Under the pieces are notes generated by a model. That model made no database searches. It was not told the origin of the DNA and saw nothing but the letters and a program-made list of their open reading frames with translations. From the NCBI GenBank assembly GCA_021199655.1, contig JAJQHQ010000050.1, forward strand, positions 1 through 64,000: 64,000 bases of DNA, read 5' to 3'. Made by a program: the position numbers and the translations under genes. This document shows, piece after piece, positions 5,974 to 64,000 of this stretch (within the stretch, counting starts at the first letter, position 1; each line of letters starts with the position of its first letter). Source of the stretch: Lachnospiraceae bacterium (GTDB lineage: Bacteria; Bacillota; Clostridia; Lachnospirales; Lachnospiraceae).

Positions 5974-6000
5974 GTAACTGTGAAGGTACTGAACAGTTAC
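5974..6000. mobile_element. 27-bp mini-element with perfect 8-bp target duplication
   Basis: Starts GTAACTGTGAAGG and ends ACTGAACAGTTAC; the outer 8 bases at each end are exact inverted repeats. It is bounded on both sides by CCAAATCA (5966-5973 and 6001-6008), the mark of insertion with an 8-bp duplication. It landed 10 bp from parS site 2. Other copies occur at 14745, 25631, 47109, 51159 and 63617. Confidence 0.85.
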
Positions 6001-14744: not shown

Positions 14745-14812
14745 GTAACTGTTCAGTACCTTCACAGTTACGGAAAAAGTCCATTTAAAATCTCTGCGCG
14801 GTGGGACTTTTT
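14745..14812. mobile_element. Truncated GTAACTG mini-element at the 3' end of rnpA
   Basis: Contains the complete 27-bp terminal hairpin (14745-14771, GTAACTGTTCAG...CACAGTTAC). The second hairpin of the 135-bp element follows (AAAAAGTCC ... GGGACTTTTT, 14776-14812). The third hairpin and right terminus are missing. The rnpA stop codon (TTA on the plus strand, 14785-14787) lies in the second hairpin. Confidence 0.75.
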
Positions 14813-25630: not shown

Positions 25631-25657
25631 GTAACTGTGAAGGTACTGAACAGTTAA
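25631..25657. mobile_element. 27-bp mini-element with perfect 8-bp target duplication
   Basis: GTAACTGTGAAGG ... CTGAACAGTTAA; the last base is A where other copies have C. It is flanked on both sides by GAAAGCAG (25623-25630 and 25658-25665). It lies in the gyrA-murT gap, 38 bases before the murT start codon, so it is in the murT leader. Confidence 0.85.
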
Positions 25658-30623: not shown

Positions 30624-30672
30624 GTAACTGTTCAGTCCTTCACAGTTACGAGATACTGTACTGAATAGTTAT
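30624..30672. mobile_element. 49-bp mini-element with perfect 8-bp target duplication
   Basis: Left end GTAACTGTTCAG, right end CTGAATAGTTAT (10 of 12 complementary to the left end), with an internal CACAGTTAC. It is flanked by GCTTTGTT on both sides (30616-30623 and 30673-30680). It lies between the metK promoter and the riboswitch, so it would be transcribed as the first part of the leader. Confidence 0.82.
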
Positions 30673-30701
30673 GCTTTGTTTACAATTACATACGTTTTTC
30701 T

Positions 30702-30868
30702 CTTATTCAGAGTGGTGGAGATACATAGGATCTGTGAAGCCACGGCAACCCCGGCGCAGTCTTTCAGAAAAAGATGCAATGGAAGGTGCCAACCTGAGCG
30801 AGTAAACTCGAACAATAAGGGGATTTGATGATTGATTATTGAGTCCGCCTTTTTAGCGGACTCTTTTT
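30702..30868 (+). promoter_or_regulatory. SAM-I (S-box) riboswitch with terminator
   Basis: The P1 stem CTTATT (30702-30707) / AATAAG (30814-30819) encloses the conserved S-box features: CAGAGTGGTGGAG, GAAGCCACGGCAACC and AAGGTGCCAACCTGAGCGAG. The expression platform ends in a terminator with stem GAGTCCGC / GCGGACTC followed by five T (30841-30868). When SAM is bound, transcription should stop before metK. This is a complete class I aptamer by motif order. Confidence 0.95.
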
Positions 30869-44700: not shown

Positions 44701-47043
44701 GAGAAGCAGCTTGGGAATCTGGAGATCACGAAGACGACTACGGGAGCAACTACACCGGATGATACAGAGTTTACAATAAGCGGTCCGGACGGTTTTACAA
44801 CTGAAACGCATACCTATGAGGAGTTCAAAGACGGCGTTTTGACGTTGAAAGGTATCCCGACAGGTGAGTACACGATTGTGGAGAGTGTCGACGGAGCAAA
44901 GGTTGATGGTTACAAGCTTAAAGTAACCGACGACGGTACAGTGACAGCAACTGTTGAGTCCGGTGAGACGGCGACGGTTGAGATCGAGAATAAGTACACG
45001 AGAGAAACCGGAAATCTGGAGATCACGAAGACGACAACGGGTGCAACAACACCGGATAGTACGGTCTTCACGATCAGCGGACCGAGCGATTACGGGACTG
45101 TAACGTATACTTATAAGGAATTCAAAGACGGCGTTTTGACGCTGAAAGGTATCCCAACAGGTGAGTACACGGTTGAGGAAAGCGTCGACGGAGCAAAGGT
45201 AGCTAATTATAAGTTGAAAGTAACCGGTGACGGTACAGTGAAAGCAACCGTTGAATCCGGTGAGACGGCGACGGTTGAGATCGAGAATAAGTACACGAGA
45301 GAAACCGGAAATCTGGAGATCACGAAGACGACAACGGGTGCAACAACACCGGATAGTACGGTCTTCACGATCAGCGGACCGAGCGATTACGGGACTGTAA
45401 CGTATACTTATAAGGAGTTCACAAACGGCGTGCTTACATTGAAAGGTATCCCGACAGGTGAGTACACGGTTGTGGAGAGTGTCGATGGAGCGCAGGTAAT
45501 TGGCTACACGCTGAAGGTAACCAATGACGGTACAGTGACAGCAACTGTTGCAGCTGGAGAAACAGCATCGATTACGATCGAGAATACGTACACAAAGAAA
45601 ACGACTAAGGTCGCCGTGACCAAAGTCTGGGATGACGAGAACAACAAGGACGAGATCCGTCCGACGAGCGTTACAGTGAAGCTTCTTGCGGACAATGTGG
45701 ACACAGGTGAGACAGTGACGCTCTCAGCGGACAACAACTGGACGGCAAGCTTCGAGGATCTGGATCAGTACAGCAATGGTACGGAGATCAGCTACACAGT
45801 TGAGGAAGCAGAAGTACCGAGCGGCTATACTGTAAAGGTGACAGGAAGCGCAGCGGCGGGCTACACAATCACGAATACGCACGTTCCGGAAACGGAAACC
45901 GAAACCGAGACGGAAACCGAAACCGAGACGGAAACCGAAACCGAGACGGAAACCGAAACCGAGACGGAAACCGAAACCGAAACAGAAACGGAAACAGAAA
46001 CTGAAACTGAAACGGAGACTGAAACGGAAACCGAGACAGAAACTGAGACAGAGACCGAAACAGAAACAGAGACTGAAACAGAGACAGAAACCAGGACAGC
46101 AGAGATTTCGGTAACGAAGAACCTGCAGGAGCCCAATGGCGATGCGTTGTATGCGGTGGATGATACGTATTACGTAGGTCTGTATACGGACGCTGAATGC
46201 ACGAACCTGTACGCGATGATGGCGCTCGAATACAAGAACGCTTCGGCTTCGACCGTAGTCTTCACGGATCTGGCGATTGGAAGTACGTATTACATCGCAG
46301 AGTGCGACGAGAACGGAACGGCTCTTATCTCCGGAATCGAAGTACTGGCGGACGGCACGAAGTATGCGCCGAACTTTGGCGACAATGCGGTGACGACGAC
46401 CGTGACCACAACGGATAGCAGCCAGACGGTGGTGACATTCGCGAACGAGTTCTACACGATACCGAAGAACTATTATAAGGAAGGTGCGCTGACTATTACC
46501 AAGAAGCTGCTTGGTGCAGACGGTTCGGCACTGAAATCGAGTGAGACGTTCTACGCAGGTATTTTTACGGATGCGTCCTACACAACACTGGCGGCGACGA
46601 CAGGCAGTGCGACGACGACGGAAGCGACCGTGGATCAGAATATCATAGCCCTTAGCCTGAACGGAAACTCTGAAGTGAGCGTGGAAGTAAAGGTAACGAT
46701 TCCGGGCGGTGAGACTGCGACCCTGTATGTGACCGAGGTAGACGCGGACGGCAATCCGGTAGACGGAGCGGAAGGATTCGCGTACACGGTGAGCATGGAC
46801 GGTTCTGTAGTAACGATGGATGCGGAGAACCCCACCGCGAGCGTGACGATCACGAACCAGGAGATCGAAGAGACGACGGAGGAAGAAGTTGAGTCCGAGG
46901 AAGAGTCCGAAGCGGTACAGACAGGCGATGAGACGCCGCTGGCATTCTGGTTCAGTCTGATGCTGATGGCTGTGGCTGTGATAGCTCTGGCTCTCGCGAA
47001 GCGACTTAGAATAGCCAGAGCGAACTGCCGCAGAACAAAGTGA
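35749..47043 (+). CDS. Giant cell-wall-anchored adhesin with Cna-B and FctA-like isopeptide domains
   Basis: A 3764-residue surface protein. In order: signal peptide (about 1-31, ends ITTFADEG); acidic Thr/Ala/Glu-rich stalk (about 32-165); a series of immunoglobulin-like adhesion and D2-type domains (about 170-1260); a SpaA-like domain (about 1263-1350, LSKLDADTGKALGGAEFALY); four FctA/Spy0128-like domains starting near 1701, 1983, 2284 and 2695, alternating with domains ending LPLGTYSVTE or similar; three near-identical 99-residue repeats (2989-3285); a Cna-B domain (about 3285-3370, VTKVWDDENNKDEIRP); a pure Glu-Thr tract (3381-3448); two more domains; and a sorting signal VQTGDETP (3723-3730) with membrane segment and basic tail. 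Internal isopeptide bonds are expected from the family. No sortase gene is in the window. ATG 35749 follows GGAGGG. Confidence 0.93.
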   Translation: MRKTTKRNRILAFILTFAMIFQQAGITTFADEGTSAAAETAVEATTNDAGETTAAEEVSTADETTAQTTASTEAEEVSVTDTEASADPADTDEPDAEASDNDTDPAAETIGDVEDESEADTESAAEDVTEAESEEVTEAATEAAEDTEAADAAEAADETETEAETEEEAPKTSFTYSDENVVITATASEDANFSQDVELVADYIEPDSIAYEEAVSKIESQLGSSLGLTDDNTEAAYLLYDVYFLSAEGERVEPEAGTVSVSMVFRQAVDLGLTGEITSKAVVHIKDGSTAEVVTDFVNVNANGDVTAMGFTQDSFSETGLVLASGSTDVPFDISSAVDMSQFATINVNSVYADGEDVATSIVERDAELTINMTFTVGNDTVSQTLAHSSYVWEYDLSDFVDENCIFSVSGSGDLYRTEGTSTKVGEYYVENGKLYLYIYEQYLDTWTSNITGTFNFYAALDTTNIGTETSEMISFPGYSTIINFEEVTVTTSKKVNENYSNDTVTITKDSDGNYYMNYTLTFTVDAALSTLVLTDTLGAGQTLVDGSVQVNSSTVDSSHISYSTDSDGVTTMYIYIAGTDTSDIDYLYDSSAKDATYTVTYKVKLDEDVFEDHGKLKNSAYWTYNGTNSETKTTEVTPYKNISSQVSKEYEKTVYDDTTGYYTFYWKLTVTGDDLSGYVVTDTCGSNQTYNSSSFEIDCTDGTPAVTVSTTTYSDSTTGFTFTFPSDTTYSGTYVFTYTTTSTQTKDEMAGSGTVSFNNKVSIDDGDGNTGSDDGSTSIDTGTKTAEAEIEKNWTTTKDTVDTTTGFLYWEIKVTLADGVTELENVTVTDSYPYYYLNQDSWNGKQLTMKWDTIEVKDASGNVLTRGTNATDGDYTIDESTGVITFAKLTSDVTITGAVYFDFSSLSETDKVTFINSAVLKVNDVKLDEDSDTLTYTENDYRMTKTVTYDESTGLFNWTVVINPTMAEYADQICVYFSDTLPAGMEFVGCIDKNGSSVSSAINVALSVSDYGSGNGQNYTVTVQTKKVLDENDKETDQQTIEKVDVGILGSFHWYLSKTSYTITYQTKLSDTELARIAAIYANGYTEQTFSYTNVAYLLNSSGGTLTSVEEEITYMYNPLSKSDLGIGADANYANSKDVFTYKVVANEEEIDLDPNSDTLTLYDTLGSDVSILLDSVSVTDENGADLSGVTISYEEDTLVITIPDQTCAVITFSVKAVDLGENTYTNTVYLVGYVTYSASVSEKHYIKEHSGTVNGVSNTITLSKLDADTGKALGGAEFALYQVNYDENTYVLGSETVVKDSLENSIYTSDEYGKVTFPLLTPGSLYYWEETEAPTGYVASSTEKHYFIVYAVATNQAGTAEDTSTTGQATTKANREAAEALAEAIENANSGVTVHVLRASYSWVVTNKQTGSITVTKNVTINGNAVTAGDDTMDGDYIFGLFTVTEETGQSPVETLVDVDTIKVSDGAAENTLTFNGLASGDYVVRELMEVTSSDTYQYTWIDSASEIHYYIDYSDTGVTVIVDGTESTEKDVELSSKESKSVTFTNNKVNGSLQITKTVVADTETAESESEAGTTYDIIVKLETPVTAGDDLSKVKAENGNGDDITDDQNLALTVDTTDPTILTFQIKAGTSESVKLTNLPLGTYSVTENIAEGKTYTATYTVTAGGDSTTETNSSIELSAAKADKEVEVTNEYPIEATIEAKKSYNHALKGGDFTFKLTAGNNNAGVDTPMPTAESTTGTINLDGSVTVTNGSASSVDTDNLYTASVSFGTISYAKKGVYYYTIEETSTSDEYLTCDTTVYNVRVTVSVNDNGVKSVTVEYQKAGSSDGYSDTVPTFANTKTGKLEISKSLLASAATKTSNEGTYYQVTVALSNAADGVDLAGVTAKVTSGTDERNDAHQLSGISEGSNSLEFWILPDQTVTLSGLPYGTYTVTEDDSSTDFTAVYYVDSSKESSASVTISDNKLSGSVKIVNDYGDYGASAIISAKKTYNVAFGTDTFMFKLIQGKAADNKTPSPMPEGYSTETLEGGDTQNYVTEIVNKDNIYSTVKEAVVNFDAITYDTVGTYYYTLLEIAGTDDGIVYSETVYTIKVEVTDAAPNLTAKVSYKLQGADDSTYEVMSNEQGNVNVPEFENTKLGSLTITKTVVADTETAESESEKDTTYEIKVKLMNSETDGADLSGVKVVDSNGTDITTKKDLDLKGKETNSKELTFKIKAGSTEAVTLTNLPLGTYSVTEIVDEDEIYSATYKVTDAAADEDNTSISVSSDALNREVEVINEYQIETTIKAQKSYNAVLNENAFTFELTAGNNNAGVSTPMPEGYNTATNSITAKNKAGTLDNGTYYADVEFGPIIYKEKGIYNYTLTEVVPVEGDSSYNSNITYSTVSYDVKVEVKVEGTVKSVEVTYSVAGEDSYTTDVPTFENKLSGSLKINKTLVDDAVNGGTFFFTVKDADDNYYYLDGTTGETVKTNAADTNRIISVSVTKNGTETTGDITLTKLDADEYTVTEVTQSGKAISATEYKVEITGGTPTANTAEVKADVIAGYQAVVSVTNTKLGSLEISKEVLASTATKESESEANTEYEIKIMYTPDVNTDDLSGVTSELSSGSGYYTLTGNSDGSTELTLKIKAGQVVTLSGLPLGTYEVSETPNSKYTAKYEVNNGESKEAADTVTISSSAHSGSVKVINDYDDYDASLEIPVTKTYNVEFGTDTFTYMLIAGTKVGDSTVQSPMPTSAVTGDVNGTTCTYVTTVVNVSGNSTDKTETAHFASIPYEGEGTYTYTLKEVQSGNTDDEYIIYDQAEYEITVAVTKKQGEEDYAVTVTYVKTIDSDGTAIAAGDQTTETLNLKDADTISSTAPSYSNKKVGKITVDKTVLVNGKADTTGQKNGTYYFALYKVADDGSEKYIETKPISVTSGSGTAVTFESLLEPGTYKVKEVTGKGADAEVLSSTDLTITGDDTDTDGVKTVALTAGKTESVSFTNDYTEKQLGNLEITKTTTGATTPDDTEFTISGPDGFTTETHTYEEFKDGVLTLKGIPTGEYTIVESVDGAKVDGYKLKVTDDGTVTATVESGETATVEIENKYTRETGNLEITKTTTGATTPDSTVFTISGPSDYGTVTYTYKEFKDGVLTLKGIPTGEYTVEESVDGAKVANYKLKVTGDGTVKATVESGETATVEIENKYTRETGNLEITKTTTGATTPDSTVFTISGPSDYGTVTYTYKEFTNGVLTLKGIPTGEYTVVESVDGAQVIGYTLKVTNDGTVTATVAAGETASITIENTYTKKTTKVAVTKVWDDENNKDEIRPTSVTVKLLADNVDTGETVTLSADNNWTASFEDLDQYSNGTEISYTVEEAEVPSGYTVKVTGSAAAGYTITNTHVPETETETETETETETETETETETETETETETETETETETETETETETETETETETETETETETETETETRTAEISVTKNLQEPNGDALYAVDDTYYVGLYTDAECTNLYAMMALEYKNASASTVVFTDLAIGSTYYIAECDENGTALISGIEVLADGTKYAPNFGDNAVTTTVTTTDSSQTVVTFANEFYTIPKNYYKEGALTITKKLLGADGSALKSSETFYAGIFTDASYTTLAATTGSATTTEATVDQNIIALSLNGNSEVSVEVKVTIPGGETATLYVTEVDADGNPVDGAEGFAYTVSMDGSVVTMDAENPTASVTITNQEIEETTEEEVESEEESEAVQTGDETPLAFWFSLMLMAVAVIALALAKRLRIARANCRRTK
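44713..45603 (+). repeat. Three tandem 297-bp repeats inside the adhesin gene
   Basis: Units begin at 44713, 45010 and 45307 with the same bases encoding GNLEITKTTTGATTPD. The period is exactly 297 bp (99 codons) each time. Units 2 and 3 are almost identical in DNA over their first 110 or so bases, which indicates recent duplication or gene conversion. Such repeats can change copy number in frame. Confidence 0.9.
45889..46092 (+). repeat. (Glu-Thr)n microsatellite in the adhesin gene
   Basis: About 34 tandem GAr-ACn hexamers encode an uninterrupted Glu-Thr dipeptide run (residues 3381-3448). The first third repeats a higher-order unit of alternating GAAACC and GAGACG. Every hexamer keeps the frame, so slippage would change length without breaking the protein. 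It lies between the Cna-B domain and the last domains before the wall anchor. Confidence 0.95.
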
Positions 47044-47108
47044 GGGGGCGTATCCAATCTTGTGGGTGAGACCCGGAGACGCCGCAGACATAAGGATAAC
47101 GAATAAAC

Positions 47109-51051: not shown

Positions 51052-51185
51052 GTAGCTGTTCATAACAGTACCCCGCACTCGCTGCGAGGTACGTATGAAA
51101 ACGTACATTTTACAGGAAAAAGTCCCATCGCGCAGCGATTTTAAATGGACTTTTTCCCGTAACTGTGAAGGTACTGAACAGTTAC
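51052..51185. mobile_element. 134-bp mini-element (three hairpins), slightly decayed
   Basis: Left end GTAGCTGTTCAT, right end CTGAACAGTTAC. It contains, in order, the GTACCCCGCA / TGCGAGGTAC hairpin, the AAAAAGTCCCATCGC / GCGATTTTAAATGGACTTTTT hairpin and the 27-bp terminal hairpin (51159-51185). It is the same composite as 63617-63751 in reverse orientation. The flanks GAAGAGTT and GATGATTT agree at 6 of 8 positions. The 418-bp gap 50941-51358 otherwise shows only A/T-rich sequence. Confidence 0.8.
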
Positions 51186-56967: not shown

Positions 56968-57232
56968 CGTTACGCTGCAAATCGTTTGTTCACAAATTTT
57001 TCAAATTTTTCCCCATAAATGAACACACAAAACGATTATGCTCTTGGCAGTATTATAGTAAACGATGAGAGTCGTTTTACTTTGCGCCAGACGCGAGGCT
57101 GCGCAAGCAGCCATTCCTCACGCGTCTGTGTGCATATTAGATATTTATATGCAATGACGGAATCAGACAGGAACAGCTGCATTGGTTGCGCAGGGGTTAT
57201 CAATACGGTTTTATCGCAGTGGGAGGCAGCAT
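56968..57232. other. Gap before the export locus
   Basis: A/T-rich sequence with a hairpin AGACGCG ... CGCGTCT (57092-57129) whose inner part is GGCTGC/GCAGCC. TATAGT near 57051 could be a -10 box, but no convincing -35 lies 17 bases before it. I see no gene here. Confidence 0.4.
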
Positions 57233-60133
57233 ATGGGTAATTACCAGATGAAATGTAAAGGAGATAAAACATATATACAAAGGATGCCGCAGCAAAAACA
57301 GGAACGTGGCAGGAGTGGAAAGTCAGGGAAAAGAGCGGCTTTGAGCGGTCTTTTATCACTGGCTGTTTTTTTCACGCAGATGGCCGGATTCATGACGGTG
57401 TCTGCGGAGGCGGAAACGTATGAATATGAAGGGACGACGCAGATTGCCTCAACGGATTATTATGCGGAATTCAGCACTACGGCGGTGGACCTGATCGTTG
57501 AGGAGGTCTATGTATCTTCCGGGTCTTATGTACAGGAAGGTACCAGCATTCTTAAGATCACGGATGACAGCTATCAGAGTGCGATTTCTTATTATAAAGC
57601 GGCGATCATACGCGCAGAGAATAACTTGACGGATGCAGAGCTCACTTACGCGCAGGGAATGCAGTCAGCGGAGTATACGCTGGAATTGGCGCAGGCGGAG
57701 GCCGATCAGGCGGAATTTGTCCGTGACCAGTCCGAAGCGGAGCTGGAGGACACGATAGAGGATCATGAGGAGATTCTCGTTGAACTGGAGGAACGGATCG
57801 AGGATCTGGAAAATGGCGAATATGACGATGATGATTCCTCATCGAGCAGTTCATCAAGCAGTTCATCGAGCAGCTCATCAAGTTCTTCTTCTTACGATTC
57901 ATCAGAGGAAGAGACGGAGAATCAGGAACAGACAAACGCCACGACGGAGTCGGAAACGGAGACAGAATCCGAGACAGAGGATCCAGCTGCGGCCCTGCAG
58001 CTGGAGCTTCTGGCACTTCAGACGCAGTCAGAACTTCTGGCAGAGTCTGAGTCTGAGCTGGAGTCAGAGCTGCTGGAGAAAAATGAAGAATACAATGAGA
58101 TTCTGGAGAAAATGTACGCTCTGGAAGGATATGATACTTCTGTTCTGGCAGGGGCCGGACATCTGGTGTTGGATACGGAGGAGGAAACGGAAGAGGAGAC
58201 GGATTTTTCCGCAAACCTTGAGAGTGTGTTGTCAACGATGACCGGTTCTTCGAATTTGCCTCAGGAGACGCTGGCGGATACATCTTCGCTGATTTCTGTT
58301 GTGTCGGCGGATACGGGTATTTCTACTGTATCGGAGGACACGACGGAAGCGACAGCAGAAGAAACTGAAACTTCTGCAACAGAGGCCACAGAAAAGACGA
58401 CCACCGAGGCTTCCGCCACAGAGACCACGGAGGCAACGACCGAAGCGTCTGCAACGGAAACTGAAGAAGAAACGACAGAGACAGAAGCGACTATTATTAT
58501 AGAAGATATTGAGGAAGTGAAGGATGCCGGTGATGCCTCCACGGCGAGCCCGGAGGAGACTGAGACGGAATCCGACACATCGGATACAGAGGAGGATTCG
58601 GAGACGGAAGAGGACACGCTGGAATCTTTGCTTGCCGAGCTGTACGCCATGGAATCCACCAGACAGCAGCTATACCTGGATTATTATGAGGTGATTCACT
58701 CGGAAGAGGATGTGGCGGAACAGATTGCGGTGATCGAGCAGCAGCTGGCCGCATTAAGCAGCTCGACAGCTTCGGGATATTCTTCTTCAGCGTCTTCGGG
58801 TTCTGCATATGGGACATTCGGTACAGGCAGCAGCACGGCATCTGCCGACTCGTCATCATCCACGGATTTGGACAGTTCCACGGATTCAGGCGATTCCACG
58901 GATTCGAGCAGTTCCACAGATACGAGCGATTCTACAGATACAAGTGATTCTACGGATTCAAGTGATTCTACAGATACGAGCAGTTCCACAGATACGAGTG
59001 GTACGACGGATACTTCCGGGACATCCGCTTCGTCGGGCAGAGATTCTGCTTCCGGAACTTCGGATTCCACGAGTACAGGCGGATCTACGGCTTCCGGCAT
59101 GAGCGGCAGTTCCTCGACGGATTCCTCTGACTGGTCTTCGGCACTTGCTTCGGCGATGGCATCCGCTTCAGACAGTTCGGACTCTTCTTCATCGTCAAAG
59201 TCGGGAAGCACCGATTCTTCGTCCGTATCTTCTTCGGATTTAGCTTCTGCTCTGGCATCGGCAGGTACAGGAACTGACACGTCGTCATCAGCTGCGGCAT
59301 CGGCCGGCACGGATGTATCGTCTGCGCTTTCGTCAGTCTCAGGAGGGGCTTCAGGCAGCGGCAGCAGCGATAGCCTGTTTGGAAACACGTATGATCTGTC
59401 GGAAGCGGAAACGGCTCTGGAGCTGACGGCGACGGATTCTGACGAGGCGGAAGAAGTATTGGAGCAGCTTTATGAAGTGCTGGAGGATGTACAGCTTCAG
59501 TATGAGGAGCTGATGCGGATTAAGACGACGACGGAACTGGATATTCAGTATACTTATGATACGACAATCCTTGCCGGAGAGCTGGCGGAGATCACTTACC
59601 AGCAGACGGTCGAGTCGCTGGAAGAGGATCTGCAGTCCTATGAGGATGCGGTGACTGAACTGGAGGAAGCGCTGGAAGTATTGCAGAGCCTGGAAGACGG
59701 CACGGTGACTGCCGAGGCAGCGGGCAGCCTTTCGGCGGTCAACTATGAGGCGGACGATACTTTAAGTTCCACGACCGCGCTTTACAGTATTTATGAGACG
59801 GATGTAGTGACGGTGACGATCGAGGTATCTCAGTATGAGATCGCGAAGATGGCGGTCGGTGATACGGTGAGCGTGGTGCTGTCCGGCTATGGAACTTATG
59901 ACGGCACCATTTCTGAGAAGAGCACGGAGGCGGAAGACGGGACATCCCGGACGACTGTAAATTATCAGGTGGTCGTTTCCATTGATAACAGCCGCGGCTG
60001 GTTGAGCGCAGGTATCGGGGCGACGGTCACAGTGACGGCAGATGATGCAGCAGATAATACCGCAGAGATAATAGAATACGCAGCGGAGCAGACAGAAGAC
60101 GCTGCGGACGCAGCAGAGAATGAAACAACGTAG
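57233..60133 (+). CDS. Secreted HlyD/MacA-like adaptor with very large low-complexity inserts
   Basis: 966 residues. Signal-like segment at about 32-57 (RAALSGLLSLAVFFTQMAGF), then a biotinyl/lipoyl-like half-motif (VDLIVEEVYVSSGSYVQEGT), coiled coil (SAEYTLELAQAEADQAEFVR), and three inserts: poly-Ser and Glu/Thr (about 200-245), Thr/Glu/Ala-rich (about 345-460) and a Ser/Thr/Asp/Gly-rich stretch of about 200 residues (about 510-715). The second coiled-coil arm and the beta-barrel domain follow (VTVTIEVSQYEIAKMAVGDT). It is first in an operon with a second adaptor and a MacB-like permease. The stop codon TAG lies in a mini-element remnant (60130-60156). The start at 57233 follows GGGAGG. Confidence 0.78.
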   Translation: MGNYQMKCKGDKTYIQRMPQQKQERGRSGKSGKRAALSGLLSLAVFFTQMAGFMTVSAEAETYEYEGTTQIASTDYYAEFSTTAVDLIVEEVYVSSGSYVQEGTSILKITDDSYQSAISYYKAAIIRAENNLTDAELTYAQGMQSAEYTLELAQAEADQAEFVRDQSEAELEDTIEDHEEILVELEERIEDLENGEYDDDDSSSSSSSSSSSSSSSSSSSYDSSEEETENQEQTNATTESETETESETEDPAAALQLELLALQTQSELLAESESELESELLEKNEEYNEILEKMYALEGYDTSVLAGAGHLVLDTEEETEEETDFSANLESVLSTMTGSSNLPQETLADTSSLISVVSADTGISTVSEDTTEATAEETETSATEATEKTTTEASATETTEATTEASATETEEETTETEATIIIEDIEEVKDAGDASTASPEETETESDTSDTEEDSETEEDTLESLLAELYAMESTRQQLYLDYYEVIHSEEDVAEQIAVIEQQLAALSSSTASGYSSSASSGSAYGTFGTGSSTASADSSSSTDLDSSTDSGDSTDSSSSTDTSDSTDTSDSTDSSDSTDTSSSTDTSGTTDTSGTSASSGRDSASGTSDSTSTGGSTASGMSGSSSTDSSDWSSALASAMASASDSSDSSSSSKSGSTDSSSVSSSDLASALASAGTGTDTSSSAAASAGTDVSSALSSVSGGASGSGSSDSLFGNTYDLSEAETALELTATDSDEAEEVLEQLYEVLEDVQLQYEELMRIKTTTELDIQYTYDTTILAGELAEITYQQTVESLEEDLQSYEDAVTELEEALEVLQSLEDGTVTAEAAGSLSAVNYEADDTLSSTTALYSIYETDVVTVTIEVSQYEIAKMAVGDTVSVVLSGYGTYDGTISEKSTEAEDGTSRTTVNYQVVVSIDNSRGWLSAGIGATVTVTADDAADNTAEIIEYAAEQTEDAADAAENETT
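58869..59005 (+). repeat. 18-bp tandem repeats encoding Asp-Ser-Thr-Asp-Ser-Ser
   Basis: About seven imperfect copies of a GATTCTACAGATACRAGT-type unit encode DSTDTS/DSTDSS repeats in the third insert of the first adaptor. All units keep the frame. This resembles Ser-Asp stalks of surface proteins. Confidence 0.8.
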
Positions 60134-60185: not shown

Positions 60186-61730
60186 ATGGCCAACAGCAAA
60201 AAGCGTAAAAAAAAGCATCATTATCTGAGAAATATATTTCTTCTTCTTGTAGTTGTGGCAGCAGGAGCGGGCGCTTTTGTGGTCTATCAGGATCAGCAGA
60301 CGACAGAGACGGAAGTGACGACTTCCTATAAACAGGAAACAGTGAAATACGGCTCCGTTATCACCGGCATTACGGAGAGCGGGTCGGTGACCTACGGCAC
60401 TGCGGATCAGGAATTTGAGGTGGCGGAGGTGGTTTCATCATCGAGCTCCAGCTCGTCGAGTTCCGGTTCATCGAGCAGTTCGAGCATCGATATGAGCAGT
60501 ATGAGCAGTATGACCAACATGGCTTCAACAGCAGCTTCGACTACTGCCTCCAGTTCGTCTTCATCTTCGGGTTCCTCCACTTCTCTGGAAATCGAGGAGG
60601 TCTATGTGGCAGTCGGCCAGGTGGTTTCTGAGGGCGATGCGCTGATGAAGATCACAGATGAAAGCATTGAGGCTTATCGGGAAGAGCTAGAGGCGGCGGT
60701 CACGAGTGCGGAGCTGACCGTAAAGCAGGAAGAGATCAACGTTGAGACCAAGCAGGCGGAAGCGGATTATACGTATGCCACTTACATAGCGGAAGGCGAG
60801 ACCGCGGAGGCGACCTATAACGCGACGATTACCAGTCTGGAAAATACGGTGACTGAGCTTGAGGAAGATCTTGAAGAAGCTGCGGAAGAACTGGAAGAGC
60901 TGCAGTCAGAGTATGATGACGGTGAAGACGTGGAGGACGATCTGGAGGACGCTCAGCTGAATTATGATACGATCGAGGCGAATCTGGAGATTGCGAAGAA
61001 CAACCTGACCACGCAGTCAATCGAGGCAAAGCAGACCTATGAAAACGCCATGACCAATTATGAATATGCCGACCAGCTTTATGAAATTGACACGGACGGC
61101 CTGACGGATGATCTGGAGGATGCGCAGGATACACTGGAGGAGGCCGAGGAGGCCCTGGCGGAATTTGAGGAGCAGATCGGCGATGGTGTGATCTATTCCG
61201 AATATTCCGGGACAGTAATGTCGATTTCCTACAGCGCGGGAGACAGTCTTTCCAGTGATTCGACGGTGGTGACATTTTCGGATTCGGACGCCGTGACGAT
61301 GACGGTGGCGGTTTCCCAGAATGATATCGCGGATATTTCCACAGGGGATGCGGTGTCGATTTCTCTGACTGCGTATGAGGATGAAACGTTTGATGGGGAA
61401 GTGACGTCGATCTCCACATCGGCGACGACCGGTTCCTCAACGGTAAACTATGAAGTGACGGTGACCTTTACCGGCGACATCAGTAAAGTGTACTCTGATA
61501 TGACAGGCGAGGTGACCTTTATTACAAAGGAAGAGGCGGATACGCTTTATATTTCCAACCGTGCGGTCTATACGGACGGAGCGACCTCCTACGTGAAGGT
61601 TTTGAATGACGACGGGACGATTGAGGAAGTGACGATTACGACCGGCTATTCCAACGGCACGACGGTCGCGGTGACCTCCGGACTTGAGGAAGGGCAGACA
61701 GTGCTGATAGAAAGTCAGGTGACAGAATGA
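60186..61730 (+). CDS. HlyD/MacA-like membrane fusion (adaptor) protein
   Basis: 514 residues. A basic N-terminus, one membrane anchor (about 14-36, NIFLLLVVVAAGAGAFVVYQ), then the adaptor fold: first lipoyl half (VKYGSVITGITESGSVTYGT), a Ser-rich insert (about 82-135), LEIEEVYVAVGQVVSEGDAL as the second conserved lipoyl segment, a long coiled coil (about 165-325), then the beta-barrel and membrane-proximal parts (SNRAVYTDGATSYVKVLNDD, EGQTVLIESQVTE). It would bridge the permease to the outside. It is preceded by GGAGGCGGG, and its TGA overlaps the ATG of the permease gene (ATGA). Confidence 0.88.
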   Translation: MANSKKRKKKHHYLRNIFLLLVVVAAGAGAFVVYQDQQTTETEVTTSYKQETVKYGSVITGITESGSVTYGTADQEFEVAEVVSSSSSSSSSSGSSSSSSIDMSSMSSMTNMASTAASTTASSSSSSSGSSTSLEIEEVYVAVGQVVSEGDALMKITDESIEAYREELEAAVTSAELTVKQEEINVETKQAEADYTYATYIAEGETAEATYNATITSLENTVTELEEDLEEAAEELEELQSEYDDGEDVEDDLEDAQLNYDTIEANLEIAKNNLTTQSIEAKQTYENAMTNYEYADQLYEIDTDGLTDDLEDAQDTLEEAEEALAEFEEQIGDGVIYSEYSGTVMSISYSAGDSLSSDSTVVTFSDSDAVTMTVAVSQNDIADISTGDAVSISLTAYEDETFDGEVTSISTSATTGSSTVNYEVTVTFTGDISKVYSDMTGEVTFITKEEADTLYISNRAVYTDGATSYVKVLNDDGTIEEVTITTGYSNGTTVAVTSGLEEGQTVLIESQVTE

Positions 61731-63556
61731 GATTATCAGAGCTTTTAAGGCTTGTCTGGCTGAACATCAATCAGAACCGGTTTAAAACTGTGATGACATC
61801 CATCGGAATTATTGTAGGAGCGGCCACGATTGTGATGGTGATCGCCATCGGACGCGGAGGACAGATGGATGTGGCGGAGCAGTTTGCCAGCCTGAATGCC
61901 GGATCGATTGATATTACCTATGACTATGCGGGTGAGGAGACGTCAGCGGGAGGAGACAGCAGCTTTTCTTTTTCTGATTTCAGCAGTTCGATCATGAGCA
62001 ATATCAGTAATCTTTTTGGCGGAGGAAACAGCGGCGGCCGGGGCTCCATGGATTCAGGCAGCAGTTCATCATCCGCAGATTCCTCGTCCGGCGATTCTTC
62101 GTCGGGCGGCCGGGATATGGCGATGGGCGGCGGTATGACGATGGGCGGAGATTTTTCCACCGATGCGTCGGGAGACAGCAGCGGCGGTCGGGGCGGCATG
62201 GGTAATTTTTCTGATTTTTCCGACAGTGACATCAGTGATATGGCGGAAGCGTTCGCGAGCGGCGAGATGGATATGAGCGATATCGAGGAAATGTTTTCCG
62301 GTGAAGCGGACGGCTCTGAAGATGGTGAAACGGAGGATGCCGGCGCTGCGGATGACAGTGACGAAGTGGCTGACGATTCGAACGGCGCAGGCGTATCTGG
62401 TGAGGTTGCAGAAGAAGGGGAAGATGATTCCGGCGAAGCAGGCTCGGAAAGCAGTCTGGAAGAAGCAGCTGAGGCAGAAAGCGGCTCTGCGGAGGAAGAG
62501 ACGGAAGCTGCCGCTGCAGTTGCTGCCGAGGATGAGGAGGACGAATCCGAAACAGACCTGACAGATGACCGTCTGAATCAGGAAAATATCATTCTCACGA
62601 TTGACGATGTAGAAGACATCCAGACTTTTGTGAGCGGTGTGGACGACGCAACGATTTCCTATACGACCCGTTCTTCGGTTGAGGGCGGTGACCTGACTGA
62701 GGCGGAGACTTACACGGTAGCAGGCGTATATTATAGCTACTACACGGTCAGCAACCTGTCCATGGCGGAAGGGGAATTTATCACGGACGATGAGAGCGAC
62801 AGCTGCTCAAGAGTCTGCGTACTCGGAAGCAGCGTGGCGAAAGAACTGTTCGGCAGCGCTGCGGAGGCTTATGGAGAGACGCTTTATCTGGATGACCGCG
62901 CGTATGAGATTGTCGGCGTGCTTTCTTCTTCGTCTACGGTATCCGGCAGCATCACGCCGGACGAGTCGATTTTTGTGCCGTATGAGACCGGCATCAAATA
63001 CATTACGGGTGAGGACATCAGCCCGGTGATCACTGTGATCTGCAATGATGTTGATCTGGTGGATACGGTAAAAGCAAATGTGGAAACGGTTCTGGAGGAA
63101 AACTACAGCACGGCGGAATTCACGTTCTCCGATGCGAGCAGCAAGCTGGAAGCGGCGGAGTCTTCGAATGAGATTCTGACCATGCTGCTCTCGGCGATGG
63201 CGGTGATCGTTTTTATCGTCGGCGGAATCGGCATTATGAACGTCCTGTTTGTTTCAGTCAAAGAGCGGACCGGCGAGATCGGAATCCTGAAATCACTTGG
63301 CGCGTCACGGAGTACGATTCTGTTTGAGTTCCTGTTTGAGTCGGCTGCGATCAGTCTGATCGGAGGATTCCTCGGAGTCGGAGCCAGTTTTCTGGTGACA
63401 CCGATCGTGGAATACAACGGAATCCGCGTGGAGGCAAATATTAATGCCTGGGCGGCGGCGCTTGCGTTTTCTATCCTGACCGGTACGATTTTCGGATTTT
63501 ATCCGGCGTGGCAGGCTTCCAAGCTGGTGCCTGTGGAGGCGCTGAATTCGGATTAA
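61727..63556 (+). CDS. MacB-like ABC transporter permease with large disordered insert
   Basis: 609 residues of the MacB_PCD/FtsX permease type. Membrane segment 1 is near 20-45 (TVMTSIGIIVGAATIVMVIA). The extracellular domain is interrupted at about residues 75-285 by a Gly/Ser/Met then Glu/Asp/Ala-rich insert, and resumes at NIILTIDDVEDIQTFVSGVD. Three more membrane segments form the FtsX part (MLLSAMAVIVFIVGGIGIMN, ERTGEIGILKSLGASRSTIL). The ATPase subunit, normally a separate LolD-like protein, is not in the window and may lie beyond 64000. Substrate is unknown; MacAB systems export peptides, antibiotics or lipoproteins. Confidence 0.88.
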   Translation: MRLSELLRLVWLNINQNRFKTVMTSIGIIVGAATIVMVIAIGRGGQMDVAEQFASLNAGSIDITYDYAGEETSAGGDSSFSFSDFSSSIMSNISNLFGGGNSGGRGSMDSGSSSSSADSSSGDSSSGGRDMAMGGGMTMGGDFSTDASGDSSGGRGGMGNFSDFSDSDISDMAEAFASGEMDMSDIEEMFSGEADGSEDGETEDAGAADDSDEVADDSNGAGVSGEVAEEGEDDSGEAGSESSLEEAAEAESGSAEEETEAAAAVAAEDEEDESETDLTDDRLNQENIILTIDDVEDIQTFVSGVDDATISYTTRSSVEGGDLTEAETYTVAGVYYSYYTVSNLSMAEGEFITDDESDSCSRVCVLGSSVAKELFGSAAEAYGETLYLDDRAYEIVGVLSSSSTVSGSITPDESIFVPYETGIKYITGEDISPVITVICNDVDLVDTVKANVETVLEENYSTAEFTFSDASSKLEAAESSNEILTMLLSAMAVIVFIVGGIGIMNVLFVSVKERTGEIGILKSLGASRSTILFEFLFESAAISLIGGFLGVGASFLVTPIVEYNGIRVEANINAWAAALAFSILTGTIFGFYPAWQASKLVPVEALNSD

Positions 63557-63616
63557 GTGCGTGTGGCGGATCTGAGTTAAGGGCAGAATGGTGACAGAAT
63601 GTTTTTTAAAATATGG

Positions 63617-63751
63617 GTAACTGTTCAGTACCTTCACAGTTACGAGGGGAAAGCCCATTTAAAATCGCTGCGCGATGGGGCTTTCCTCCACATGCTATAT
63701 GTTTTCATACGGTCTTCGCAGCAAGTGCGAAGACCTGTTCTGAACAGTTAC
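63617..63751. mobile_element. 135-bp mini-element, intact ends, perfect 8-bp target duplication
   Basis: The ends are exact 12-bp inverted repeats: GTAACTGTTCAG and CTGAACAGTTAC. It is flanked by AAATATGG on both sides (63609-63616 and 63752-63759). It contains three hairpins: the 27-bp terminal one (63617-63643), AAAGCCCATTT...ATGGGGCTTT (about 63650-63685), and GGTCTTCGCA / TGCGAAGACC (63711-63735). No open frame fits inside, so it must be moved by a transposase encoded elsewhere. It lies between the permease and lipoprotein genes. Confidence 0.9.
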
Positions 63752-63804
63752 AAATATGGTTCATAACTCGGCCGCGTCAGAAAAGCGGAGAAAAGAGGAA
63801 AGCT

Positions 63805-64000
63805 ATGAAAAGAAGATCTTTGAGCCTGCTGCTGGCAGCGGCGATGACAATTTCACTGACCGGTTGTGAGAGTGTAAGCGAAGTGGCCGGTTCCGCACAG
63901 AGCGCCGTCAGCGGCGCAGTGGGAACCGTCAGTGAAAAACTGGGTTTTTCGAGTGAAGAGACGGAAACAGAACTGGCCGAAGGGCAGCGAAAGGCAACGA
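63805..64000 (+). CDS. Lipoprotein, N-terminal part (cut by window edge)
   Basis: Starts MKRRSLSLLLAAAMTISLTG with the cysteine next (lipobox L-T-G-C), so it is exported and lipid-anchored. It continues into a Ser/Ala/Val-rich stretch (VAGSAQSAVSGAVGTVSEKL) and is open to the end of the window (65 codons seen). AGAGGA precedes the ATG. It follows the export locus and may belong to it; what is visible is too short to name a family. Confidence 0.8.
   Translation, partial: MKRRSLSLLLAAAMTISLTGCESVSEVAGSAQSAVSGAVGTVSEKLGFSSEETETELAEGQRKAT

Follow-up and report, generated by a model that had tools for sequence, protein, structure and literature searches.

The 64,000-nucleotide stretch of Lachnospiraceae DNA analysed here (the window) contains, towards its right-hand side, a gap between an ORF that ends at 63556 and looks like an ABC permease and an ORF with its ATG near 63805 that looks like a lipoprotein gene. 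Within this gap lies a 135-bp element (63617-63751, + strand) with exact 12-bp terminal inverted repeats, the left one reading GTAACTGTTCAG (63617-63628, +) and the right one giving the same reading on the minus strand (63740-63751), where many other copies have GTAACTATTCAG. The element is bracketed by the 8-bp target duplication AAATATGG (63609-63616 and 63752-63759), so that the length, ends and duplication described in an earlier note on this DNA are confirmed in both coordinates and sequence. Three hairpins follow one another from left to right on the + strand: the 27-bp head unit (63617-63643), in which GTAACTGT pairs with ACAGTTAC, a central hairpin with a conserved ATTTAAA-type bulge (63647-63687), which covaries between genera, and a third hairpin, GGTCTTCGC...GCGAAGACC (63711-63735), which covaries within the genus. 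The internal hairpins claimed by the note are thus real, and the fold of the whole element is more stable than that of any of 200 shuffled sequences on either strand (z -7.20 and -7.39). The note's statement that no open frame lies inside the element stands as far as ORFs confined to the 135 bp are concerned, of which there are none, but one frame is open throughout (63613-63999, +) and continues in frame into the downstream lipoprotein-like ORF, probably by chance. An Rfam search of the window found no match over the element, nor did searches of five further loci, and promoter and terminator scans placed no site on it. Two long ORFs upstream of the ABC-permease-like ORF (57182-60133 and 60186-61730) have repeats that are very rich in serine or acidic residues, and by sequence the pair resembles an efflux adaptor and its neighbouring gene. 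A GA-cis RNA scores above its gathering score at 46980-47059 (46.5 bits).

The window holds further copies in several states. Two are 27-bp solo copies, both on the minus strand, at 5974-6000, with the target duplication CCAAATCA on both sides, and at 25631-25657, with GAAAGCAG. A 49-bp copy on the plus strand (30624-30672) is internally deleted, its head joined to the right end between duplications of GCTTTGTT, a truncated copy retains the head unit (14745-14771, +), and a full-length-like copy of about 133 bp has its left end at 51185 (51053-51185, -) and is without a clear octamer pair. A SAM riboswitch at 30700-30821 (70.3 bits) starts 28 bp past the 49-bp copy, which places that remnant in a leader region.

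Many more copies are present in the genome to which the window belongs (G000, a 3.98-Mb draft in 110 contigs). BLAST returned 43 matches that are 81-100% identical, 41 of which cover at least 114 of the 135 positions; the first look at this genome scored 40 of 355 candidates. The exact 12-mer end occurs 186 times (92 forward and 94 reverse; none for the reversed control), and as each copy can contribute at most two, this corresponds to roughly a hundred or more sites. In an 845-kb sample that includes the window, we scanned for two end-like 12-mers no more than 300 bp apart whose flanking octamers differ at one position at most, and found 43 elements, 26 with identical octamers, compared to 0, 1, 0, 0 and 0 in controls whose flanking octamers were taken 10, 15, 20, 30 and 45 bp further out. 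The earlier note had called the window copy MITE-like and had proposed looking for an excess of matching flanking octamers; that excess is found in this sample, and together with the inverted ends and the lack of genes it bears out the description. By length, the 43 comprise fourteen of 26-27 bp, five of 29-63 bp, two of 64-119 bp, nineteen of 120-150 bp and three of more than 150 bp, and none of them lies inside an ORF of at least 100 aa (a simple length rule, with no gene finder), though such ORFs span 87% of the sample. Among 91 collected elements of 120-160 bp, a length range picked to favour octamer matching, the octamers are identical in 50 and differ by one mismatch in 16. A looser pairing scan of three contigs (at most 4 mismatches per end, spacing 20-6000 bp) gave 29 hits against 17 in a control run without the end filter and therefore has no discriminating power; the three kilobase-long pairs it produced are at chance level. 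A second subfamily, with GTAACAGTTCAG ends and other inner hairpins, was seen at three sites (C10:67022-67248, C10:125591-125654 and C18:99016-99241 of G000), and its 12-mer also occurs in IS66-type loci of G428 and G376 and in a stretch of G363 (L377). Some hairpin tips carry a module around CCGCTTCGGTCGG with an inner hairpin of its own (G000:C10:87067-87253, G000:C18:94195-94431, L236 and L246), which has 8 hits in the 845 kb, 4 of them within octamer-bounded elements, is also found in another genus, and differs in presence between orthologous copies.

A first search found matches in 15 of 41 genomes, all 15 from the same genus, while a 27-base head pattern matched 13 of the 250 family genomes searched (12 of the 13 belong to other genera); the controls gave no match. 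Exact head matches are most numerous in G164 (33) and G286 (26); the family is patchily distributed across genera, and high copy numbers are not confined to the genus of G000. The near-complete genome G164, nearly one contig, has 58 exact 12-mers, each examined with at least 4 kb of flank on either side. For 32 of them a second end lies 27-233 bp away, with at most one octamer mismatch (two of the 32 being the two ends of one copy), and scanning out to 5 kb, or to where the stretch stops, revealed no partner end more than 1 kb away. Copies of 26-27 bp with octamer duplications are found in several genera (G081, G089, G129, G164 and G283). Plasmids gave no match to the element, and among phages three faecal contigs carry copies that are 72.8-75.5% identical, with no exact 27-mers in viral contigs. 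On one faecal phage-labelled contig (L090, 4369-4568), a Clostridiales-1 RNA hit near the MITE copy scores 30.4 bits, below the gathering score of 48.

We consider it very likely that these copies belong to a family of non-autonomous MITEs that are about 135 bp long, mobilised in trans by an IS66-family DDE transposase of the single-ORF, ISBst12-like type, and later eroding to a 27-bp palindrome. Movement by an IS66 transposase is inferred from the matching ends and the length of the duplication. An IS66-type copy of 1796 bp on a viral-collection contig (L388) has GTAACTATTCAG at both ends, is bounded by the target duplication CTATGGCA, and has its ORF split into 92 and 423 aa. In the longer stretch (L383) around locus L351, GTAACTATTCAG again stands at both ends, 3607 bp apart, between copies of ATAATTTT, and the protein of L351 is by Pfam and NCBIfam a predicted IS66 transposase, scoring 150 bits against PF03050 (cut-off 23.1) and 264 bits against the NCBIfam IS66 model (cut-off 180). 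The end of the window copy, GTAACTGTTCAG, is found exactly at one end of a 1824-bp IS in L352, the other end agreeing at 11 of 12 positions and the octamers without a match, and the IS end GTAACTATTCAGTACC of L376 shares 15 of its 16 bases with the left end of the MITE. An exact MITE-type 12-mer is present in nine of 29 loci (L346-L374): GTAACTGTTCAG in L352, GTAACTATTCAG in L351, L360, L370, L373 and L347 (in L347 not at the end position), and the end of the second subfamily, GTAACAGTTCAG, in L349, L371 and L374. The likeness is limited to about 12-16 terminal bases, with nothing shared recognised beyond about 16 bp. These findings support the best guess of the earlier note, that the mover is of the IS66 type, and the matching IS it had suggested looking for was found, with 8-bp duplications, in other genera of the family but not in the MITE-rich genomes checked. 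There, a PF03050 search of G000 gave one fragment only, which adjoins a GTTACTATTCAC-type end, and no IS with MITE ends, G164 and G286 likewise had none, and 12 carriers from other genera gave eight PF03050 matches in four genomes, none with MITE ends within 1.5-kb flanks; all genomes searched for the partner except G164 are drafts.

The usual IS66 elements of the genus were dismissed as movers, since their ends, such as GTAAACGTCAAACC, GTAAATGTAAAACC and GTAAACGGTAGATA, differ from those of the MITE; ends could be resolved in 5 of the 20 stretches, and one of these five is of the GTTACTATTCAC type. No MITE end was found at zero mismatches in the IS66 loci of the genus that were examined. An IS66-like element encoding 692 aa in G061 (L054), with a GTATCTATTCAG-like site about 260 bp past the ORF and no partner end, was set aside, and the IS6 family (PF13610) matched in one of nine genomes.

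Could the MITE instead be moved by the sister IS66-type group with GTTACTATTCAC ends, rather than by the group with GTAACTRTTCAG ends? Members of the sister group are close at hand: the G000 fragment belongs to it (56% identity), a profile of the group matches 26 of the 397 family genomes searched, and a complete, divergent 2267-bp element with GTTACTATTCAC ends is present between copies of ACTATTTT in a genome of the same genus (G014). Its ends match GTAACTATTCAG, a MITE end, at 10 of the 12 positions, and among 80 loci fetched from named genomes, 27 are intact between 8-bp duplications. The two positions at which the ends differ are, however, nearly fixed in the sister group, since all 72 loci with a right end found have T at position 3 and 71 of them have C at position 12, the MITE carrying A and G there, and IS66-type elements with exactly matching ends do exist. 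We therefore regard the sister group as an unlikely mover. Several copies of this group are found in Schaedlerella arabinosiphila and Dorea sp. 5-2 (L142-L146, L164-L166, L179, L182 and L202), many with 8-bp duplications, and in the G014 copy the transposase is preceded by a 102-aa ORF with no family match above cut-off.

Orthologous sites in related genomes allow the states of individual insertions to be compared. Fifteen own-genome sites had any two-flank hit, of which nine were viewed as alignments and the window site separately; sites seen from the relatives are shown at a mean flank identity of at least 84%. At the window site, the related species G013 (91% identity to G000 over the joined flanks) has the identical pair of AAATATGG octamers, here flanking a 27-bp element, GTAACTGTTTAGTACCTTCACAGTTAC, with the head unit as the sole remaining form. 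An insertion common to G000 and G013 between the same octamers is older than their split, and the earlier note's view that the window copy was recently active is thus not supported. As for the empty sites in relatives that the note had proposed to compare, the window site shows only an imprecise absence, the element being missing from G047 and G012 but the intergenic DNA differing too, while a precise one is found at a sister copy (C10:65931-66064), which is full in G000 and G047 and empty in G013, where a single octamer remains with one base changed (GGGGAAAG compared to GGGGAATG). A further site (C10:73951, equal to G013:C31:59611, one site viewed from two sides and counted once) holds a right-half remnant in G000 and a 27-bp copy in G013 with an identical boundary. 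At C10:87067-87253, the G000 copy contains about 47 bp of nested hairpin sequence that G013 does not have, and G012 is without the element.

The 27-bp form could be explained by deletion within the full element, as an 8-base sequence, ACAGTTAC, is present twice in the window copy, once where the head finishes and once at the right end, and a deletion between the two repeats, which lie at both deletion edges, yields exactly the 27-bp form. In addition, G164 and G000 contain intermediates of 41-51 bp in which all or part of the 27-bp head is joined to a right end and the octamers are kept. We interpret the 27-bp forms as scars of deletion; the two orthologous sites and the intermediate forms suggest the direction of change. 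The reverse, in which the 27-bp palindrome is the basic mobile unit, a tiny transposon of which the 135-bp forms are extensions, would account for the 14 of 43 elements that are 26-27 bp long between octamer duplications, for their occurrence in several genera, and for G283, where three exact head matches include two apparently solo copies and no full copy was seen. It would leave unexplained why the orthologous pairs (135 and 27 bp at the window site, right-half remnant and 27 bp at C10:73951) suit deletion, why the intermediates join head to right end, and why the repeat predicts the 27-bp product exactly, and we think it improbable. A 22-bp form at C10:88476-88497, which is 27 bp long in G012, was dropped as proof of deletion from a full element because a 5-bp deletion and one change in a 27-bp copy explain it equally well.

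Covariation was counted in 22 head plus central hairpin segments, comprising 13 from G164, two each from G000 and G198, one each from G202, G075 and G286, and two from faecal phage-labelled contigs. These remain of 52 head segments, of which 42 entered the alignment (A2); copies from joined contigs, copies whose octamers have more than two differences and seven with long inserts or shortened hairpins were excluded from the 52, and copies with an extra base in the left arm, L036, and L230, L231, L247 and L037, with shifted register, from the structure count. Of 548 cells, 97.1% are paired and 16 unpaired. Double changes are found in 9 of the 25 pairs, with 46 cells changed on both sides compared to 2 changed on one side, although with 13 of the 22 rows coming from G164 the cells are not independent events. 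None of 500 shuffles reaches the pairing or double-change values, while the number of pair types is as high in 232 of the 500, and sliding the partner lowers pairing to 35-42%. The double changes are all in the central hairpin; in the head hairpin five pairs are invariant and three depart only by unpaired cells, with compensated head changes seen in single copies (GTACCTG/CAGGTAC in L033 and GTATCTG/CAGATAC in L037). The third hairpin covaries within the genus, as 23 own-genus copies folded separately show.

G-U pairs make up only 2 of the 548 cells, and this near absence of wobble pairs, read with the caveat that the cells are not independent, fits better with the upkeep of a DNA palindrome than of an RNA fold. 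That the repeat is a regulatory or terminator RNA spread by homologous recombination, with no transposon involved, is a reading to which strong hairpins, covariation and the placement of 0 of 43 elements inside ORFs might lend themselves, but variable octamers duplicated at the ends, an empty site with one octamer, ends common to IS66-type ISs, the rarity of G-U pairs and the silence of the Rfam and terminator searches make it highly improbable. Returning to the transposon, we suggest tentatively, as a possibility we would not yet favour, that the inner palindromes are preserved as DNA, either through template-switch correction of quasi-palindromes or because single-stranded DNA that folds is selected for when it is transposed or replicated, that the same folding drives the collapse to 27 bp, and that REP-like short palindromic repeats may quite generally arise from IS66-type MITEs.

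Put together, the proposed course would begin with the element as it is found today, between 8-bp duplications at many places, outside the sampled ORFs and variably present at matching sites in related species. An IS66-type transposase would bind GTAACTRTTCAG at both ends and join the element to a target with an 8-bp stagger, which host repair would turn into the duplication. Deletion between the ACAGTTAC repeats, possibly helped by the hairpins in between, would then leave the 27-bp palindrome with its duplications intact; both states are seen at one site, and it is their order that is conjectural. Meanwhile the arms of the inner hairpins change together with few wobble intermediates, as if the palindromes were kept at the DNA level.

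No description of this MITE family was found in the literature searched: the seven papers found to contain the 12-base end concern other subjects, judged by title and abstract, and searches on MITEs with Lachnospiraceae, IS66 or related genera turned up nothing on it. With the family tied to a definite transposase group, mobilisation in trans becomes testable. Two points stand out, the route to the scars and the covariation with few wobble pairs: one orthologous site with a structured MITE in one species and a 27-bp palindrome in another offers a concrete way in which short palindromic repeats, often of unclear origin, could form, and hairpins nearly without wobble intermediates make DNA-level palindrome correction testable on a natural series.

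ISBst12 members have a single ORF. They form a subgroup of IS66 according to the available text of PMC8024623, and that of PMC11946415 gives the IS66 family 8-bp direct repeats and inverted repeats of 20-30 bp starting GTAAGCG. The MITE shares with the ISBst12-like group its 8-bp duplications and ends that begin GTAA, the PF03050 transposases being flanked by GTAACTRTTCAG, but it has no transposase and only about 12-16 terminal bases in common. Its repeat of 12-16 bp, GTAACTGT, departs from the 20-30-bp GTAAGCG repeat and agrees instead with that of the GTAACTRTTCAG subgroup.

ERIC, Correia and RUP elements are short gene-less MITEs with terminal inverted repeats, target duplication and many intergenic, hairpin-forming copies. 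The family resembles them in these traits and differs in its ends, in duplication length (8 bp here), in taxon, and in inner hairpins that are kept across genera while the sequence changes. The SDR elements of cyanobacteria, very small mobile repeats of 20-30 bp that appear to have been inserted, are similar in size, and here the 27-bp form can be compared with a larger element at the same site. REP and REPIN sequences depend on a RAYT (Y1) transposase and are not known to make target duplications, which the MITE family has.

REPs and REPINs are described as short palindromes at many intergenic places, tied to RAYT tyrosine transposases, in the available parts of PMC3116915 and PMC3733652, and the former adds that compensatory changes are common in REPINs and that single REPs are remnants of larger mobile units. 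As far as these sources reach, palindromes, compensatory changes and 27-bp forms as remnants are shared with the family reported here, while its 8-bp duplications and its ends of the IS66 type suggest a DDE transposase. By its testable features, the element is best placed as a MITE with IS66-type ends and an IS66-type duplication length.
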